From Candidatus Levyibacteriota bacterium (GTDB lineage Bacteria; Patescibacteriota; Microgenomatia; Levybacterales; UBA12049), in assembly GCA_030651475.1 (NCBI GenBank), contig JAUSEW010000005.1, positions 1 through 39,376 on the forward strand: DNA of 39,376 bases, written 5' to 3'. The notes beneath the pieces were generated by a model that was not told where the DNA came from, made no database searches, and was given only the letters and a program-made list of their open reading frames with translations. Made by a program: the position numbers and the translations under genes. Below, piece by piece: positions 14,116-39,376 of the stretch. Each line of letters starts with the position of its first letter. Position 1 is the first letter of the stretch.

Positions 14116-15138
14116 TTATTGTCTGCTTATGCTCCTTTTGTATAATTCTATATTTTCCAAAGCAACACCTGTCCCCCGAGCAACGCAAAGAATCGCATCT
14201 TCCGCAACATGGCAAGGAACGCCGGTAAGTTTGGTCATAAGTTTATCGAGATTCTTAAGAAGAGACGTTCCTCCGCTCATAACCACGCCTTTGTCTATTA
14301 TATCTGAAGCCAATTCCGGAGGAGTTTGCTCCAAAACGCCTTTTACCGCCGAGATAATATTCAAAAGCGTAGGATAAATAGCCTCATTTATCTGAACTTC
14401 CGTAAGCTCGATTGTTCTTGGCAGCCCTGTTATATTGTCTCTTCCTCTAATCTCCATTTTCCTTTGCCCTTCCGAAGCAGAATTTTCTTCCCCTACGAGT
14501 GCGTTTGCTATGGCGATTTTTATTTCTTCTGCTGTTCTTTCTCCAATCAAAAGGTTAAATTTCTTTTTGGTGTAATTTGCGATTGCCTCATCAATCTTAT
14601 TTCCCCCTACCCGAACCGAATGATGAACTACCACTCCGCCAAGAGAAATAACAGCCGCTTCCGTAGATCCTCCGCCAATATCCACAATCATATGTCCTGC
14701 AGCTTGAGCTATGGGAATTTTTGCGCCAATTGCAGCTGCCAACGGTTCCTCGATAAGATAGGCTATTTTTGCTCCTGCAGCCATTGTCGCGTCAAGAACA
14801 GCTCGTCTCTCAACCTGCGTAACGCCGGAAGGAATGCACACCATTACCTCCGGTTTGAAAAATCTGGATTTACCGCAAGCCTTGTCCATAAAATAAGAAA
14901 GCATTGCCTCTGTCACAGTATAATCTGCAATAACACCATCCCTAAGAGGTCTTAAAGCTATTATATTCCCCGGAGTTCTACCTAGCATTTCTTTTGCCTC
15001 CTTACCTACCGCAATTACCCGATTGTCATCTGCTGTCACAGCAACAACTGTGGGTTCATTGAGAACTATTCCCTGGCCGGCAAGGTAAACTACCGTATTG
15101 GCAGTGCCAAGATCAATTCCGATTCTTTTTGAAAACAT
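14116..15138 (-). CDS. mreB: Rod-shape-determining protein MreB
   Basis: KRIGIDLGTANTVVYLAGQGIVLNEPTVVA...MIVDIGGGSTEAAVISLGGVV...VVMSGGTSLLKNLDKLM. Confidence 0.96.
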   Translation of the reverse strand: MFSKRIGIDLGTANTVVYLAGQGIVLNEPTVVAVTADDNRVIAVGKEAKEMLGRTPGNIIALRPLRDGVIADYTVTEAMLSYFMDKACGKSRFFKPEVMVCIPSGVTQVERRAVLDATMAAGAKIAYLIEEPLAAAIGAKIPIAQAAGHMIVDIGGGSTEAAVISLGGVVVHHSVRVGGNKIDEAIANYTKKKFNLLIGERTAEEIKIAIANALVGEENSASEGQRKMEIRGRDNITGLPRTIELTEVQINEAIYPTLLNIISAVKGVLEQTPPELASDIIDKGVVMSGGTSLLKNLDKLMTKLTGVPCHVAEDAILCVARGTGVALENIELYKRSISRQ

Positions 15139-32193: not shown

Positions 32194-32931
32194 ATGAAAC
32201 TAACCATATTCCTCATATTTTCTACCTTCTACCTTCTACCTTCTATAACGCCCGCCCTGGCACAAACTATGTCAAACACTAACTATACGCTGCAAATGGG
32301 CAACCTTAATATGACTGCGGGTAAGCCAACCGGACCAAGCAACAAATTAAATTTAACTGTCGGACAAACCGCACCTGGCCTTTACAGCAAATCAGGTGTA
32401 AATTACAAAGTCCGAGCCGGATTTCAGTATATAAAATCTATAATTGCCTTTGCATTTTCTATTTCTGAAACTAATATTAATTTTGGCACTCTTTCCCCAA
32501 CCACTCCGGCAACAAGAACCAATAATCTGACCATTTCAAACGGATCCGCAAACGGATATCAAATAACCGCTTTTGAAAACCATCAGCTTAACGTCCCTTC
32601 AACCGGTTCAATAATTCCCGACACAACTTGTGACGACGGAACCTGCACGGAAAGCACGTCTGCTCTTTGGAATAATACTTTAACCTATGGATTTGGTTAT
32701 AGATGCGACAACGTCAGCGGAACCGATTGCGCCAGCGGATTTACAACCTCAAATTATTACAAACAATTTGCAGATAATTCTGTTTCAGAAACTCCTCAAG
32801 CAGTGGTAAGCGGAACAAATGTAGGCAGAAGTAAGCAAGTGCAGGTAACTTATAAAGTCAATATTTCTTCGTCCCAGCCTCCGGGAACTTATACAAACGT
32901 CATTACGTATATCGCAACACCAACCTTTTAA
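32194..32931 (+). CDS. Secreted surface protein ending in ITYIATPTF
   Basis: Signal peptide MKLTIFLIFSTFYLLPSITPALA; beta-rich domain; C-terminus GTYTNVITYIATPTF. Confidence 0.75.
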   Translation: MKLTIFLIFSTFYLLPSITPALAQTMSNTNYTLQMGNLNMTAGKPTGPSNKLNLTVGQTAPGLYSKSGVNYKVRAGFQYIKSIIAFAFSISETNINFGTLSPTTPATRTNNLTISNGSANGYQITAFENHQLNVPSTGSIIPDTTCDDGTCTESTSALWNNTLTYGFGYRCDNVSGTDCASGFTTSNYYKQFADNSVSETPQAVVSGTNVGRSKQVQVTYKVNISSSQPPGTYTNVITYIATPTF

Positions 32932-32932
32932 T

Positions 32933-33955
32933 ATGAAAATTTTTTACTTTTTATTTATGATTTTAAATTTTGCATTTTTAATTTTTAATTTTGATAAAGC
33001 TGCCGCAGCAGGCTTATCAATAGGCATTTATCCTCCGTTAATACAAATCGAAACCTTACCGCCTGCAAATGTAAATTCCAAGATAACCATCCAAAACTTA
33101 GGCGACAATCCTGTTGATTTAGAAATAACTCTTAAGCCATTTATTGCCTCTAAAGATCAAAACGGACAAGTTGAATATATTCCCCAAGATCAATCATTTG
33201 GCGAAGACCCTCTGATTCTCCAAAGAGTACAAATTATTGACGAAGGAAAAACAATTAAAAACATCACTCTTGCTCCGCTTCAGAAAAAAGATTTAACTCT
33301 CAATATAAATATTCCTTCCGAGGAATCTCTAGGCGACTATTACTTTTCCGTTATATTTTCCGCCATTCCCGAAGCTCAAAATACAGAGGCTAATCCTTCT
33401 TTGCTTGTCAATCAGTCCCAAAGTGTAGGAGGAGTTGCGACAAATGTGCTTCTTTCCGTTTCATCCGAAACCAAAGAAACCCCTCAAGGCGTTATCGAAA
33501 CATTCTCGTCTCCAATATTTTTAGAAAAGGGTCCTGTTCCTTTTACCGTAAGCATTAAAAATACCGGACGCTATTTTATAACTCCTCAAGGTTCAATTCT
33601 TATCAAGAATATCTTCGGACAAACGGTAGGAAAAGTAAATCTTCTTCCTGTAAATATTTTGTCTAACTCAACACGCTTGCTCCCCGATGAACTGCAGTCT
33701 CCTGAATCAAATCCATCCACGGCAGAACTAAACGCTAAACGCTATACGCTAAACGCTACTAAAGCTTTCTGGCCGGAAACTTTTCTTCTTGGTCCATATC
33801 AAGCCACACTTAATGTGTCTTTATCTGATCAAGGACCGATATTTAAAAGAAGCATCTACTTTTTTGCGCTTCCATTGCAAAGCCTAATTGGTTTAGCAAT
33901 AGCTGCTATCGTCTTTGTTTTGATACGCAGCAAAATAAGAAAAAGAAATGCTTGA
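32933..33955 (+). CDS. DUF916-like membrane-anchored beta-sandwich protein
   Basis: Signal peptide; IGIYPPLIQIETLPPANVNSKITIQNLGDNPVDLEI; LGDYYFSVIFSA; C-terminal TM plus RSKIRKRNA. Confidence 0.7.
   Translation: MKIFYFLFMILNFAFLIFNFDKAAAAGLSIGIYPPLIQIETLPPANVNSKITIQNLGDNPVDLEITLKPFIASKDQNGQVEYIPQDQSFGEDPLILQRVQIIDEGKTIKNITLAPLQKKDLTLNINIPSEESLGDYYFSVIFSAIPEAQNTEANPSLLVNQSQSVGGVATNVLLSVSSETKETPQGVIETFSSPIFLEKGPVPFTVSIKNTGRYFITPQGSILIKNIFGQTVGKVNLLPVNILSNSTRLLPDELQSPESNPSTAELNAKRYTLNATKAFWPETFLLGPYQATLNVSLSDQGPIFKRSIYFFALPLQSLIGLAIAAIVFVLIRSKIRKRNA
33725..33757 (+). repeat. Exact 33-nt repeat, copy A
   Basis: GAACTAAACGCTAAACGCTATACGCTAAACGCT, identical to 38436-38468; translated ELNAKRYTLNA. 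Confidence 0.95.
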
Positions 33956-33980
33956 CAATGAATTATTATTGTTACATACT
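33952..33980 (+). promoter_or_regulatory. Putative promoter inside end of upstream gene
   Basis: TTGACA (33952-33957), 17-nt spacer, CATACT (33975-33980); start codon of next gene at 33999. Confidence 0.5.
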
Positions 33981-33998
33981 GGTAAAAATGGCTATTTC

Positions 33999-35450
33999 AT
34001 GAAAAGGTCGGTTTTGTCATTGGTATTAGTTTATATTTTTATTCTGTTCTTTTTGTCTGCAAAAAGTTCCTATGCTGCGACTCTTGCCAGTGTATCAGAC
34101 ACTATCACAACATCTCGTCCTTCAGCTTCCGCGCCTTTAACTGCAAACCAAGCTGCAAGCGCATCCCAAGTAACTGTAGTTGATAACGGATCAATATATC
34201 TTGCTTCGGACTCGGCGACTTTTCGGCCTGATACAGGAGAAACTATTGATACGTCCAAAAATGTATCCTCTATGTCCGCCCAAATCTCCGGGACTCCAAA
34301 TACCCGTATTGTTTATTTTACAAATACGATAACCAATACACATCATGCAGGCGACCCTGTGGTTGTACCTACAACTGCAATGCACACTATTTCCTTTAGG
34401 ACAGTCGCAGCTATTCCAACGTCCGGCAAAATTACAATTACCTTTCCTGCTCTAACAACCGGTGACGCAAATAATGCCGCTTCCCCTTCTGCCACAACTT
34501 TCCAGCTTAATGCGCTCTCGGACACCAATGTCAAAATTAACGGATTGTCAGGAGCTGCGACATTTACAGGCACCTATACTGCTCCTACCAACGGCACATC
34601 GCCAACTATCGCGTTAGCTTTAACTTCAACAACCACTATTGCAGCCAGCACTACGGTAACCATTCTTCTTGGCTGCTCGGCAAATTCAGGCGCATCCTGT
34701 ACGACTCAAGTTCCAACCATTATTAACCCAACTAAAACAGCAGCTGCAGGCACAGCAGATTCTTGGGCGCTGACAATTACTACTACTGATGTAACAAATA
34801 GCATTGACCTTGATAGCGCAAAAATTAGGATTGGAACCGTTGAGTCAGTCCATGTCCAGGCAACAGTTGATCCGACTCTTACGTTTACAATTGCCGGAAT
34901 TGCCAATAGCACAGCTATAAACAACGGCAATACTACGGGATGTACGAATACGGAAACAACCAATACAGGCATCGCTTCAACTGCGACAACTGTTAATTTA
35001 GGCAATCTTTCCAGCGGGGCAATCAATATCTCTGCCCAGCTGATAACAATTTCCACCAACGCGCAAAACGGTTATAGTCTTACTGCGACTTCTTCCGGCC
35101 ATTTGATTAACCCTGCGACCGGCTTTTGGATAGCTGACTCGACAACTCCAACCGTTATGACTGCAGGGACACCTTGGTTTGGCATACACGCATGCGGACT
35201 TAATGTGGCTTCTGGCACTTGGGCAACAGGCGCAACCGGAGGAGGAGCAAACGCTAAATACGGCTGGCCAACACAAGCTACATCCGTAAGTCTTGCTTCC
35301 GTAGCAACAGGACCAATTGGCAATACTGCTTCAACAGGCGGAGTCGGGGCCGGATTGACAAGCGTTGAGTATGCTTCAACTGTTGATGTAAGCGTACCAG
35401 CAGGAATTTATTCGTCAGTCATTACGTATGTAGCAACACCAACCTTTTAA
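33999..35450 (+). CDS. Large secreted Thr/Ser/Ala-rich surface protein ending in ITYVATPTF
   Basis: Signal peptide MKRSVLSLVLVYIFILFFLSAKSSYA; Thr-rich beta repeats; C-terminus GIYSSVITYVATPTF. Start revised from 33948. Confidence 0.75.
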   Translation: MKRSVLSLVLVYIFILFFLSAKSSYAATLASVSDTITTSRPSASAPLTANQAASASQVTVVDNGSIYLASDSATFRPDTGETIDTSKNVSSMSAQISGTPNTRIVYFTNTITNTHHAGDPVVVPTTAMHTISFRTVAAIPTSGKITITFPALTTGDANNAASPSATTFQLNALSDTNVKINGLSGAATFTGTYTAPTNGTSPTIALALTSTTTIAASTTVTILLGCSANSGASCTTQVPTIINPTKTAAAGTADSWALTITTTDVTNSIDLDSAKIRIGTVESVHVQATVDPTLTFTIAGIANSTAINNGNTTGCTNTETTNTGIASTATTVNLGNLSSGAINISAQLITISTNAQNGYSLTATSSGHLINPATGFWIADSTTPTVMTAGTPWFGIHACGLNVASGTWATGATGGGANAKYGWPTQATSVSLASVATGPIGNTASTGGVGAGLTSVEYASTVDVSVPAGIYSSVITYVATPTF

Positions 35451-35655
35451 GAAAGTTGGGGAATTTCTAATTATTAAACAAATATACAAATTACAAATAA
35501 CGAAATCAAAATAAGCGAAGACACAAAATTTTCGCAGATTGCGAAGAATCAGGAAAAATATTAAAGTAATAAGAGATGCTAATAACCGAATTGCCGCTAA
35601 ATAAAAACTATGAACCGGCAATAAGAAAATTTTCGTGTCGGCGCTTAATAAGCAT

Positions 35656-36621
35656 ATGAAAAATTTTAAAATTAAAATTGGATTATTGGTAGTATTTGTT
35701 TATTTGTTTATTGGGTTATTGTCGCCTAAGGCGACTGCGCAAGAAGATATTAGGACAATGACGATTGTTCCTCCGACGGTTGAACAGAGTCTGGATCCGG
35801 GAGGAAAAGCCGAAGGCACAATGAAAGTTATCAACGACAGTAACTCTCCTCTATCTTTCACTGTTTCCGTTAACGATTTTATCGTCGAAGATGCCAAAGG
35901 AACTCCAAATTTACTTGCTCCGAATACTCTTTCCAAGAAATTCAGCGCGTCTTCCTGGATTGGAGTTACGCCAAGCTCGTTCATAGTCCCTCCTCATGAC
36001 AAACAAGTTTTAAATTACTATATCCAAGTTCCCTCTTACGCCAGGCCAGGAGGACATTATGCATCGGTTGTCTTTACTCCAACAAACAATATCGGAATAC
36101 AAGGAACCGGAGCATCTGTTGAAACAAAAGTGGGTACTCTTTTCTATATTTCCGTAAGCGGCACTATCAACGAATATGCCATGATAACCAAATTTCTCAC
36201 AAACTCATTCCAAGAATACGGTCCTGTAAGTATAGCAACGACAATTAAAAACTTTGGAGATCTGCATATTAAACCTGCAGGACAAATAACTATTTATGAT
36301 ATGTTTGGCAGAAAAATTGAAAGCTCAACTTTCCCTAAATTCAATATTTTCCCTCTGGCTTCGCGAGACTATCAAAACAGCATTGGAGCCAAAATAATGA
36401 TCGGACGCTTCAGAGCCAATATCCTAACAAGCTACGGCCAAAATAACAATCTTCCGCTGATTGCAAATGTCTATTTCTGGGTTTTCCCATGGAAGATAGC
36501 CTTAATAATTATCCTTGCAATAATCGCTATAATTTTGGGGACAAAGTATTGGAAGAAGAAATCAAGTAAAGAAGAGGACTCTGTCAAAGACGAGGATCAA
36601 CCTCAGATAATCCACCATTGA
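35656..36621 (+). CDS. DUF916-like membrane-anchored protein
   Basis: MTIVPPTVEQSLDPGGKAEGTMKVINDSNSPLSFTVSVNDF...PPHDKQVLNYYIQVPSYARPGGHYASVVFTP; C-terminal TM and KKKSSKEEDS tail. Confidence 0.75.
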   Translation: MKNFKIKIGLLVVFVYLFIGLLSPKATAQEDIRTMTIVPPTVEQSLDPGGKAEGTMKVINDSNSPLSFTVSVNDFIVEDAKGTPNLLAPNTLSKKFSASSWIGVTPSSFIVPPHDKQVLNYYIQVPSYARPGGHYASVVFTPTNNIGIQGTGASVETKVGTLFYISVSGTINEYAMITKFLTNSFQEYGPVSIATTIKNFGDLHIKPAGQITIYDMFGRKIESSTFPKFNIFPLASRDYQNSIGAKIMIGRFRANILTSYGQNNNLPLIANVYFWVFPWKIALIIILAIIAIILGTKYWKKKSSKEEDSVKDEDQPQIIHH

Positions 36622-36632
36622 AATTCTAAAGA

Positions 36633-37511
36633 CTAGTATCCTACCCACCACCAATCGTGGAGCAATTTTGGGGTTTGATTAAAAGAATCAGTTGCAGTCC
36701 TCCGCACAATTCTATAAAGAAAAGTAAATTTCTCCGGCCATAGTCTTATAATAAGTATAATAATCAGGATAAGGATTGGAATTGCAATCCAAAGCGGTCC
36801 AAACGATATGAAAGTGAAAAACCTTATAATTTTGGACAATATGTCTTGCAAAAATGCCAAGATTTGCTGCCATAAAGAAAGAGATTTTAATTCAACTTTT
36901 TTCGTAGGCGTCAGAGATTCTTTGTCTTGATATGTTGCTTTGGCGTAAATCTCATATGTCCCTGCCGCAAGAGATGGAACTTTGAATGAATAATATCCTT
37001 TGCTGTCTGCTCTGGTAGTTAAAATCTGGCCGTTACTTAATTTAAGAGTTACCGTGGCTCCTGGCATGGTGTAACCGAAAGCCGTGACTGTTTGCCCTTG
37101 CGCAACCTCGTTTCTGCTTAATGCCAGCGTCGGAGGAAGAAAAAGATTATTCATCGTAATGCTTCCTGTTGCAGGAGGAAAAGAAAAACAGGTCGTGGAA
37201 TCCCCAACTCTGGCGAAATCAACCGCCTCAAGACAAAATCCAGAAAATCCTTTATTTATGAGAACTTGGGAAATAAAGAAATTACCATTCGCATCTGCTA
37301 CAGCGGATCGTATAAACGTACCATCCGACGAAGTTAAGATGATAGATGCGTAAGGAGAGACAAATCCGGAAACATTAAGATAGAACTCACCTACGGATGC
37401 TGATACCCCGGTTTCCAAACGGCCTGTTGGATTTTGTATGATTTGAGCGTGAGCCTTGCCTGTAACGGCTAAAGAGTAAATCAAAAATAACAGTAAAAGT
37501 AATTTCCTCAT
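36633..37511 (-). CDS. Signal-peptide, two Ig-like (carboxypeptidase-regulatory/bacterial Ig type) domains, C-terminal TM
   Basis: IILTSSDGTFIRSAVADANGNFFISQVLI and VTLKLSNGQILTTRADSKGYYSFKVPSLAAGTYEIYAKAT; TM FGPLWIAIPILILIIILIIRL. Confidence 0.75.
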   Translation of the reverse strand: MRKLLLLLFLIYSLAVTGKAHAQIIQNPTGRLETGVSASVGEFYLNVSGFVSPYASIILTSSDGTFIRSAVADANGNFFISQVLINKGFSGFCLEAVDFARVGDSTTCFSFPPATGSITMNNLFLPPTLALSRNEVAQGQTVTAFGYTMPGATVTLKLSNGQILTTRADSKGYYSFKVPSLAAGTYEIYAKATYQDKESLTPTKKVELKSLSLWQQILAFLQDILSKIIRFFTFISFGPLWIAIPILILIIILIIRLWPEKFTFLYRIVRRTATDSFNQTPKLLHDWWWVGY

Positions 37512-37835
37512 TACTATCATTCTATGCATAAAGAGATAAAGAAAACAACGCCTTGAAATCTTATTTTTAGTTTATGTCTTCTTTGCAGTCTAAACAAAAA
37601 TTCTATTCCTCGTAGCGCTTAAGAGTCTTGAGTGATAACTTAAAAATGAAGTCAAAAAATTTGTCTTATCGAATTTTTATCTTGTTTAAAGTTTTTTATA
37701 AACGAAACGTGAAATTTAAAATTTTTTAATTTTCGATAGACTTTTTTAAAACTGGAGGAAGAAAAATAAGAAACTCAAAAAGCAATTTTGTGACAAACAC
37801 ATCAAAACGCATCATTGGTTATTATAGGTTCTTTA

Positions 37836-37990
37836 ATACATTATGATATGTTTATATATAGATTATGTTTTCTGAAAATACAAACATTTATCGAATAAGC
37901 TGTAAAATTATCGTGAAAACCCACATTTTCGTACTTTTTCACACAATTTTTCCTTAGCTCGCAACAGTGTATTAAAATATCATAATGTAT
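37836..37990. repeat. 14-bp perfect inverted repeat pair in AT-rich intergenic region
   Basis: ATACATTATGATAT (37836-37849) and ATATCATAATGTAT (37977-37990), 127 nt apart. Confidence 0.7.
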
Positions 37991-38049
37991 CATTTCATCC
38001 TTACTCTAGGCTCTTGACAATATGTGATAGAATTCTCTACTCTAATTGT

Positions 38050-38163
38050 ATGGCAACAAAATTAATCTTCATTAATACTCCAGATAATCTGTATAATCCG
38101 TATAATCTCGTAGCTCGCGCTCACTTTTCACAAAAAGCAGTTAGGGAAATAAAATGCAGTTAG
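38050..38163 (+). CDS. Possible 37-aa upstream ORF overlapping the start of the SAM-domain gene
   Basis: MATKLIFINTPDNLYNPYNLVARAHFSQKAVREIKCS*, stop at 38161-38163 overlaps ATG at 38154 in another frame. Weak evidence. Confidence 0.25.
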   Translation: MATKLIFINTPDNLYNPYNLVARAHFSQKAVREIKCS

Positions 38164-39376
38164 TAGAACAATTCATATCGTTTTTAAAGAACCAAAAAAA
38201 CCAGCCTTCGAAAGCTACGGTAAAAAATTATAAAGCAGATGTAAGTCAATTTATCAGATGGTTTGAAGAAAGATTCAAAAACTTATTTGATCCGAATAAA
38301 GCAACTTTTCAAGTCGTAGGTCTCTATAAAGAATCCCAAAGTTTCTCTGCCAGCTCTATCGAAAGACACTTGTCTTCTCTTCGTAAGTTCTTCAATTTCT
38401 TAAAGCTCGAAGGCATCATCTCCCAATCTCCCCTCGAACTAAACGCTAAACGCTATACGCTAAACGCTGACCAGTATCGCATCAAGGACTTCAAAGATTT
38501 TCTTTATGTGTATAACGCTTCACATCTTACTATCAAAAACTATATCATTGATGTTAAGCAATTTTTCAAATGGGCAGAGGAAGTTACCGATAGTAAAAAC
38601 GAATGGGACCTACGGAAAAAAAATGTCTTAACCAAGATTGACAGCAGCTTTATTGAGGAATATAAAAACCGTCTTTTGGAGCAAGAATTTCTTCCTTCTA
38701 CTGTAAACCGCAAGCTCTCATCTTTGAGAAAATATTTTGCTTGGGCACAAGCCGAAAACTTACTAAGAAACGGAATTATTGAAGTTAGAAGTGAGACGTC
38801 TTTGACCACGGAAAAAGGAAGTCTTGATAATTTGATTTCCGACAATCAAAACGTCAAAGATTCAAAGTCAAGAATATCCAACTTCCCACATCAAAAATTC
38901 CAATCTCAATACTCCCCCCTACCTCCTATCCGCCTCGCGCAGAAAGTCTTTAATGTTTTTGAGCTTGTTTTTGATTATCTTGTAATTTTCCCACTGGCGA
39001 AATTAGGAGAAACATTTGACTATGTATTTTGGCAAATTCAAGGCAAACCAGTCTTCAAGGCTACAAGGTCACACCTTGTAGGCTCGTCTACCTTCGACCC
39101 TCTATCTTCTATCATCCGCAGAGTTTCTAACATTTCCAAAGAGATGTACGCTCCTCTTTCCATCTCAACCAAAAGTTTCCCGTGGCACAGAAAAGCCTGG
39201 CACCATCTGCGTCATACTAGACCGAACTGGTACAGAACATATCATTCTTACCCGATTACCCACTATTTTCACCTCGCAATTCTGATTATTTTCATGACCG
39301 CTGTGGGATTTGCGATGTACAATGCTTTCGCAAAAGGCCCGCAGCAAAGTCCCACGTTCGCAGCTGCGCCTGTCGC
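38154..39376 (+). CDS. Membrane-anchored protein with two tandem phage-integrase SAM-like (core-binding) domains, partial at window edge
   Basis: Open frame with no stop to window end (absent from ORF track). MQLVEQFISFLKNQKNQPSKATVKNYKADVSQFIRWFEE...SIERHLSSLRKFFNFLKLEGI and TIKNYIIDVKQFFKWAEE...STVNRKLSSLRKYFAWAQAENLL; TM YFHLAILIIFMTAVGFAMYNAF. Confidence 0.85.
   Translation, partial: MQLVEQFISFLKNQKNQPSKATVKNYKADVSQFIRWFEERFKNLFDPNKATFQVVGLYKESQSFSASSIERHLSSLRKFFNFLKLEGIISQSPLELNAKRYTLNADQYRIKDFKDFLYVYNASHLTIKNYIIDVKQFFKWAEEVTDSKNEWDLRKKNVLTKIDSSFIEEYKNRLLEQEFLPSTVNRKLSSLRKYFAWAQAENLLRNGIIEVRSETSLTTEKGSLDNLISDNQNVKDSKSRISNFPHQKFQSQYSPLPPIRLAQKVFNVFELVFDYLVIFPLAKLGETFDYVFWQIQGKPVFKATRSHLVGSSTFDPLSSIIRRVSNISKEMYAPLSISTKSFPWHRKAWHHLRHTRPNWYRTYHSYPITHYFHLAILIIFMTAVGFAMYNAFAKGPQQSPTFAAAPV
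38436..38468 (+). repeat. Exact 33-nt repeat, copy B
   Basis: GAACTAAACGCTAAACGCTATACGCTAAACGCT; same frame as copy A, ELNAKRYTLNA. Confidence 0.95.
39061..39081. repeat. CTACAAGGT-CAC-ACCTTGTAG hairpin inside the SAM-domain gene
   Basis: Perfect 9-bp arms; translated KATRSHLVGS. Confidence 0.8.

Follow-up and report, generated by a model that had tools for sequence, protein, structure and literature searches.

What is the function of a gene that encodes two DNA-binding-type domains of a tyrosine recombinase, no catalytic domain and a membrane anchor? Such a gene lies at the end of the window, the whole stretch of DNA analysed here (39,376 nucleotides), which is the entire contig C21 of a Candidatus Levyibacteriota genome (0.91 Mb in 36 contigs). 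The original prediction described an open frame running off the contig end, with tandem integrase-SAM units, no catalytic domain and a transmembrane (TM) helix, and all of this held in the ORF scan and in Pfam and AlphaFold analyses. Here we show that this architecture is conserved, that the gene is split in other families and that repeats accompany it as a single-copy element. We did not find a SAM-SAM-TM-fibre architecture described in the open-access literature searched, a scope that excludes most subscription papers.

Tandem core-binding domains on a membrane anchor

The first 407 codons of the gene occupy 38154..39374 (+), where the open frame is cut by the contig end. Two core-binding (SAM-like) domains, at 38163..38414 and 38481..38756 (both +), matched PF02899 with 51.2 and 41.1 bits, well over the cut-off of 22.3 bits (hmmscan, E=2.7e-23 for the ORF). 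An AlphaFold run on a 26-sequence alignment yielded two four-helix domains (AF2 helices 2-12, 20-41, 52-61 and 66-85, and 110-119, 124-145, 164-176 and 181-200), followed by a disordered stretch at residues 213-250, a long helix and a TM helix. The domain blocks were mostly at pLDDT >=90, with lower confidence in the B-C loop of the second domain and in the flanks. Top Foldseek matches in the PDB were recombinase N-terminal or core-binding domains (5vfz, 3nrw, 2a3v and 4a8e; probability 0.95-1.0), with E-values of just 0.1-1.1, modest because SAM domains are small. Structure prediction, originally proposed as a check of the N-terminal units, recovered core-binding folds by both routes. A tyrosine recombinase is expected to have a core-binding domain, and by Pfam, AF2 and Foldseek the window ORF meets this criterion. 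It is also expected to have a catalytic domain with the RKHRH pentad and tyrosine, a criterion unmet in the window ORF and in full-length relatives: none was found in the ORF or in any of the relatives examined, among them full-length proteins of 1,352-3,903 aa. A catalytic RHRY domain in full-length sequences would have refuted the original prediction, and the relatives show none.

The ~130-aa linker described originally needs correction, as it contains the predicted long helix (residues 257-295; 38922..39038, +; AF2, pLDDT about 79-90), which is missing from several split forms. A conserved basic/aromatic juxtamembrane motif follows at 39186..39251 (+; consensus HHxRYTRPxWYKxYHSY, alignment A1), and then the TM helix at 39252..39329 (+; residues 367-392, hydropathy core 374-392), supported by the AF2 helix and hydropathy. 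The N-in topology is inferred from the positive-inside rule, from sequence alone.

In XerH, a four-helix bundle (aA-aD) inserts into the DNA major groove (PMC5241119). Relative to Xer N-termini, the SAM domains retain the arginines of helix D (R71, R77; R186, K187, R192) and add K-N in helix B. Across 26 homologues, R71, R77 and R186 are conserved in 100%, K187 in 96% and R192 in 88% (K in the rest); K24/K128 (92-96%) and N25/N129 (96-100%) stand where Xer has V/A. Mean net charge is +3.9 and +3.6 for the two domains versus +3.4 for Xer. The comparison set comprised 17 Xer N-termini, 16 of them from one XerC/D-like group and mostly from the same genomes. Xer-like basic positions and charge support DNA binding but do not show it; binding remains an inference from the sequences.

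The exported part is the start of a giant fibre

The region after the TM helix, originally described as the Ala/Pro-rich start of an exported part, proved to be the beginning of a giant fibre. Relatives of the window ORF at E<1e-20 occur in 20 of 36 same-family genomes and in six of nine genomes from other families of the order. The search of CPR genomes for SAM-SAM-TM proteins suggested at the outset found the family class-wide. Across the phylum (287 genomes), the SAM form was confined to the class, the single match outside being a 292-aa frame of ordinary Xer length. Viral contigs gave only two weak matches, and the one inspected was an ordinary integrase; a viral origin of the gene was rejected on this basis.

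Full-length relatives measure 1,000-3,900 aa (for example L054, 1,421 aa; L043, 1,412 aa; L036, 3,787 aa; L037, 3,903 aa), and split forms reach 7,471 aa. After the TM helix come an SFQGRLTD domain, GIGTTSP-type repeats and a conserved end, SLIYITP...NWWIVN, with Peptidase_G2 or S74 domains in some members. The C-terminal end folds like the phage tailspike ends 9k4a and 7eea (probability 1.0, E about 0.01). From this tip and the chaperone-like Peptidase_G2/S74 domains of some members, we infer that the fibre is probably trimeric. The SFQGRLTD domain matches NCBIfam Bdello_MAT_N weakly (30.8 bits in L043, 14.7 in L053), and the criterion for a mosaic adhesive trimer (MAT) fibre, an N-terminal domain over the curated cut-off of 60 bits, is unmet in both. 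A further MAT criterion, a trimeric beta fibre, is supported here only by the same inference from tip and chaperone-like domains.

Many relatives are draft genomes, in which many fibres are cut by contig ends. In the window genome, a fibre C-terminus of 134 aa lies open at the edge of contig C23, with an O-antigen-ligase-like gene further on, as downstream of the fibre in relatives. The window gene was therefore probably broken by an assembly gap; that the C21 ORF and the C23 end are one gene is likely, the link itself being inferred. The cut ORF could also be taken as an assembly artefact or a decayed recombinase, an explanation all but excluded by the relatives, which occur in dozens of genomes, show strongly conserved residues and synteny, and include full-length members.

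Other features of the fibre genes were recorded in passing. In a split form (L175 and G050:C32), the open frame of ORF2 reaches 7,471 aa, one of the largest encountered. An Intein/Hint-type segment lies within the fibre gene L052:2-2620 (PF14890, E=7.6e-17), and similar segments were seen by eye in L174, L186, L188 and L193 (HNFVGNGILAHNT). Small four-helix-bundle-type genes sit beside or within fibre genes in L058, L044, L101, L189, L186 and L188 (by eye).

The second domain is usually divided between two genes outside the order

Outside the window's order, the SAM-fibre gene is usually in two pieces, always broken at one loop within the second SAM domain. About 20 split loci from other families of the class have an ORF1 (155-199 aa) that runs to about profile position 147 and an ORF2 that starts from about 161, placing the break between helices B and C, with the TM helix and fibre on ORF2. 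Profile matches of the ORF1 ends and ORF2 starts map this loop to 38589..38642 (+) in the window. The half-domain of ORF2 was matched at E<1e-4 in about two thirds of split loci and weakly in the remainder, and ORF2 frequently has a conserved start, M-x-x-L-P-x-I-S-P-E. The natural reading, which is inferred, is that the two proteins must associate to complete the second SAM domain.

Programmed frameshifting or bypass was rejected as a general explanation, since the two ORFs vary in relative frame and spacing (an in-frame stop, an overlap or as much as 1 kb between them) and ORF2 carries a conserved start of its own. Genetic recoding was rejected as well, as the junction stops include TAA, TAG and TGA. 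An Rfam scan of the junctions returned no family, just tRNAs. Between the ORF1 stop and the ORF2 start, four loci (L094, L095, L098 and L100) have a stem-loop whose apex, UCU-GGGGG-AGA or similar, is conserved; z-scores of the junction stem-loops were -2.9 to -5.4, without an Rfam family.

Reduced forms also exist, among them single-SAM forms (L211-L213) and, in family f15, fibre-less SAM(-SAM)-TM proteins of 203-322 aa (L103, L226, L227 and L228). L226 and L103 lie at the same LeuRS/O-antigen-ligase locus, and L227 adjoins LeuRS.

An unrelated DNA-binding fold occupies the same place

A search with A2, a profile of the fibre end, recovered fibres across the phylum. Among 16 non-SAM fibres with a readable N-terminus, ten carry a MerR-type helix-turn-helix before the TM helix, seven by Pfam (L164-L168 and L177 over the cut-off, L170 borderline at it) and three by eye (L181, L182 and L185); the domains are in tandem in L167 and L168. 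A DNA-binding domain is absent in four (L171, L172, L183 and L192), and two were undetermined (L173 and L184). Two genomes, G076 and G107, encode both a SAM and a MerR fibre. The MerR domains have a different fold, unrelated to the SAM domains, in the same cytoplasmic place, and the fibres have the C-terminal tip in common.

The original suggestion, a cytoplasmic DNA-binding-type module connected by a single TM helix to a domain at the surface, is supported and extended by the full-length relatives, the MerR domains in the same position and the retained Xer-type basic positions, with DNA binding itself still inferred. A recombinase piece recruited as a module, also proposed originally, fits these data.

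A single-copy repeat element precedes the gene

Upstream of the window gene, alignment A3 revealed three direct repeats with a 9-bp period (GATAATCTG / GTATAATCC / GTATAATCT; 38083..38109, +), which form the sole such site in the genome, even with 1 mismatch (0.34 expected), and a conserved tail with the consensus GAGGCT (38107-38115, +). They follow a promoter-like pair at 38014..38043 (+), TTGACA (38014-38019) and TACTCT (38038-38043), 18 bp apart; the window's -10 match is weak, and a consensus scan did not list the pair. Just before the pair, the same alignment shows ACTCTAGG (38003-38010, +), and further upstream lie direct repeats, TATCA-N5-TATCA, with a 10-bp period (37978..37992, +; a single site in the genome). 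This layout, from TATCA-N5-TATCA through ACTCTAGG, TTGACA, a -10-like hexamer and the repeats to GAGGCT, precedes nearly every SAM-fibre gene of the family and order. There the 9-bp direct repeats (GTATAATCC) number two or three; class-wide, the period is 9-10 bp. L058 and L044 retain the element despite intervening sequence with a small gene before the fibre gene. A motif similar to TATCA-N5-TATCA also precedes the MerR fibre of L182, and a shared regulator is possible.

A strict repeat pattern matched exactly once in 18 of 60 relatives' genomes, each time at the fibre gene (control, 0). In 281 class genomes a class-wide strict pattern gave 18 matches against about 1.8 expected and 1 control match, and all 18 lay just upstream of SAM-TM genes. 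A matrix trained solely on the window's family and order detected repeat pairs at 18 of 21 other SAM loci (p<0.05 each by shuffling; shuffles preserve dinucleotides just approximately) and at one of ten MerR-fibre loci. Three of four fibre-less SAM-TM members have the repeats (L103, p=0.003; L226; L227), which were not detected at L228, a fibre-less form with a single SAM domain. Most fibre-less members keep the repeats and MerR fibres mostly do not have them, so the element follows the SAM-TM module, not the fibre. Repeats near MerR-fibre promoters are merely suggestive, such as the AATCTATG repeats of L166.

In L052, L107 and L109 the repeats are absent upstream, though present within the ORF start. 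They lie inside the first codons in L107, L108, L109, L175 and L199, where they encode YNLYNLE, and within the ORF1 start in family f8, as the same peptide; selection therefore acts on the nucleotides. The element is likely to be transcribed. The SAM loci are orthologous, so the conservation of the repeats shows the element to be important but does not alone establish binding by the SAM domains. GTATAAT in the repeats resembles Xer half-sites, which is a lead only; a dif-site search for comparison with the repeats gave matches no better than the control.

Could RNA polymerase or some other factor instead read the repeats, as elements for promoter function or pausing (-10-like TATAAT) or as a signal in an RNA leader, with the SAM domains acting elsewhere? 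TATAAT does occur within each repeat, the repeats lie just downstream of the conserved TTGACA, and in some loci they are inside the ORF. Against this stand the three copies with a 9-10-bp period plus a conserved tail, the single site per genome, and their absence from nine of ten MerR-fibre promoters yet retention at three of four fibre-less SAM-TM genes. We consider this explanation unlikely.

The genomic surroundings raise another possibility. Across the family, the recurrent order is LeuRS - (WxL-like and DUF916-like surface proteins) - fibre - O-antigen-ligase/TPR - M23-like peptidase, partly kept in split members; neighbour names were assigned by eye, without profiles. In the window, a cluster of secreted WxL-like and DUF916-like surface proteins, conserved in relatives, lies just upstream of the fibre gene (32194-37529, by eye). 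The protein might be a nucleoid anchor or a handler of com-imported DNA, tying the chromosome or incoming DNA to the attachment site, as the original prediction entertained. Basic recombinase domains at the membrane favour this, as does comEC-comEA-leuS adjoining the fibre locus in several relatives. However, the com genes lie on the opposite strand behind leuS and are not beside many loci, leaving little support for handling of incoming DNA. Genome-wide anchoring is disfavoured by the lone repeat site of each genome, which stands at the promoter of the gene itself; nucleoid anchoring is still possible, with the genome-unique repeats favouring action on the own gene. Overall, this alternative also seems improbable.

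A third alternative is that the SAM domains no longer bind DNA and serve as a protein-protein module, an assembly platform or cytoskeletal anchor, with the split domain as a docking device between adaptor and fibre. The helix-turn-helix of RodZ, which binds MreB, is a precedent. In its favour, about 20 loci divide the second SAM domain between two proteins at a single point, and the window contains a gene identified by eye as mreB (14116-15138). Against it stand the retained Xer-type basic positions, the presence of MerR DNA-binding domains, of a different fold, in place of the SAM domains, and the genome-unique repeats, which stay with the SAM-TM gene even when there is no fibre. We regard it, too, as unlikely.

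A membrane-tethered protein that may act on its own promoter

We therefore lean, by a modest margin, towards a membrane-tethered DNA-binding protein with a giant outer fibre that acts on its own promoter, as autoregulator or as a tether of its own gene; DNA binding, the identity of the binder, trimerisation, autoregulation and signalling are all inferred. In this model, two core-binding domains from an Xer-type tyrosine recombinase, without the catalytic domain, would lie in the cytoplasm, and the single TM helix would serve as a signal anchor for an external phage-tail-like fibre, which is probably a trimer. The most likely target of the tandem domains would be the GTATAATCC repeats that closely follow the promoter-like element in front of their own gene. 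The protein may thereby regulate its own synthesis, keep its gene at the membrane during fibre synthesis (transertion-like), or both; proximity to the membrane would help such a large protein to be inserted co-translationally. A precedent is membrane-bound VtrA/VtrC, for which capture of a target gene at the membrane is described, and holding of this kind has been proposed for VtrA/VtrB (PMC9977878). In most other families of the class, the second domain would be shared by a small cytoplasmic protein and the fibre protein and be complete only on their association. A response to what the fibre touches is possible, and host sensing is speculation.

Several points count against the own-promoter reading. 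There are no binding or expression data, and another protein may read the repeats, or they may function in RNA or as -10-like (TATAAT) elements for polymerase. The element does not extend to the MerR fibres, a fibre trimer mismatches MerR dimers, and some tip-sharing fibres have no DNA-binding domain (L171, L172, L183 and L192). L228 does not show repeats, and L052, L107 and L109 have no upstream copies. A bolder version, in which a giant adhesive fibre is the regulator of its own gene, its cytoplasmic end binding the genome-unique repeat at the promoter, and a small cytosolic partner completes the DNA-binding domain, coupling synthesis, membrane insertion and perhaps host contact, is one we would at present sooner doubt than accept.

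Host attachment and self-regulation are almost unknown in CPR bacteria (Patescibacteria). The fibre described here is conserved across the class and has a proposed DNA target that can be tested; if the inferred binding holds, it would link a surface structure directly to DNA. Recombinase DNA-binding domains are reused here at the membrane. The two-gene forms provide a DNA-binding domain that is split in nature, and the occurrence of two unrelated DNA-binding folds at one position makes the DNA-tethering idea directly testable in vitro.

Comparison with known systems

The SAM domains have the core-binding fold and basic positions in common with Xer and RitA tyrosine recombinases, and RitA likewise has two sequential core-binding domains (PMC8138268); unlike these, the window protein has no catalytic domain and is membrane anchored. 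The fibre C-terminal domain is like the tips of phage tailspikes and tail fibres, with the difference that its gene belongs to a conserved locus on the chromosome. MAT fibres of Bdellovibrio (PMC10769870) are similar in the weak Bdello_MAT_N match of the fibre N-terminal domain, in repeats, in Peptidase_G2 or S74 chaperone-like domains and in variable tips. However, no cytoplasmic DNA-binding part or TM anchor is described for them in the relevant sections of that paper, whereas the window fibre is anchored in the cell membrane.

The closest layout is that of transmembrane transcription regulators (ToxR, CadC, TcpP and VtrA/VtrB; surveyed in PMC10269533), which have, as here, a cytoplasmic DNA-binding domain, one TM helix and an outer part. 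Neither 'integrase' nor 'SAM-like' occurs in the main text of that survey. Here, by contrast, the DNA-binding part is a recombinase core-binding pair, the outer part is a fibre of 1,000-7,000 aa and one domain can be split between two genes. The published definition, a predicted DNA-binding domain and >=1 predicted TM region (PMC10269533), is met by the window ORF. By this definition the architecture is that of a transmembrane transcription regulator with a new DNA-binding part and a new outer part, its regulatory role being inferred only from the conserved promoter-proximal repeat.
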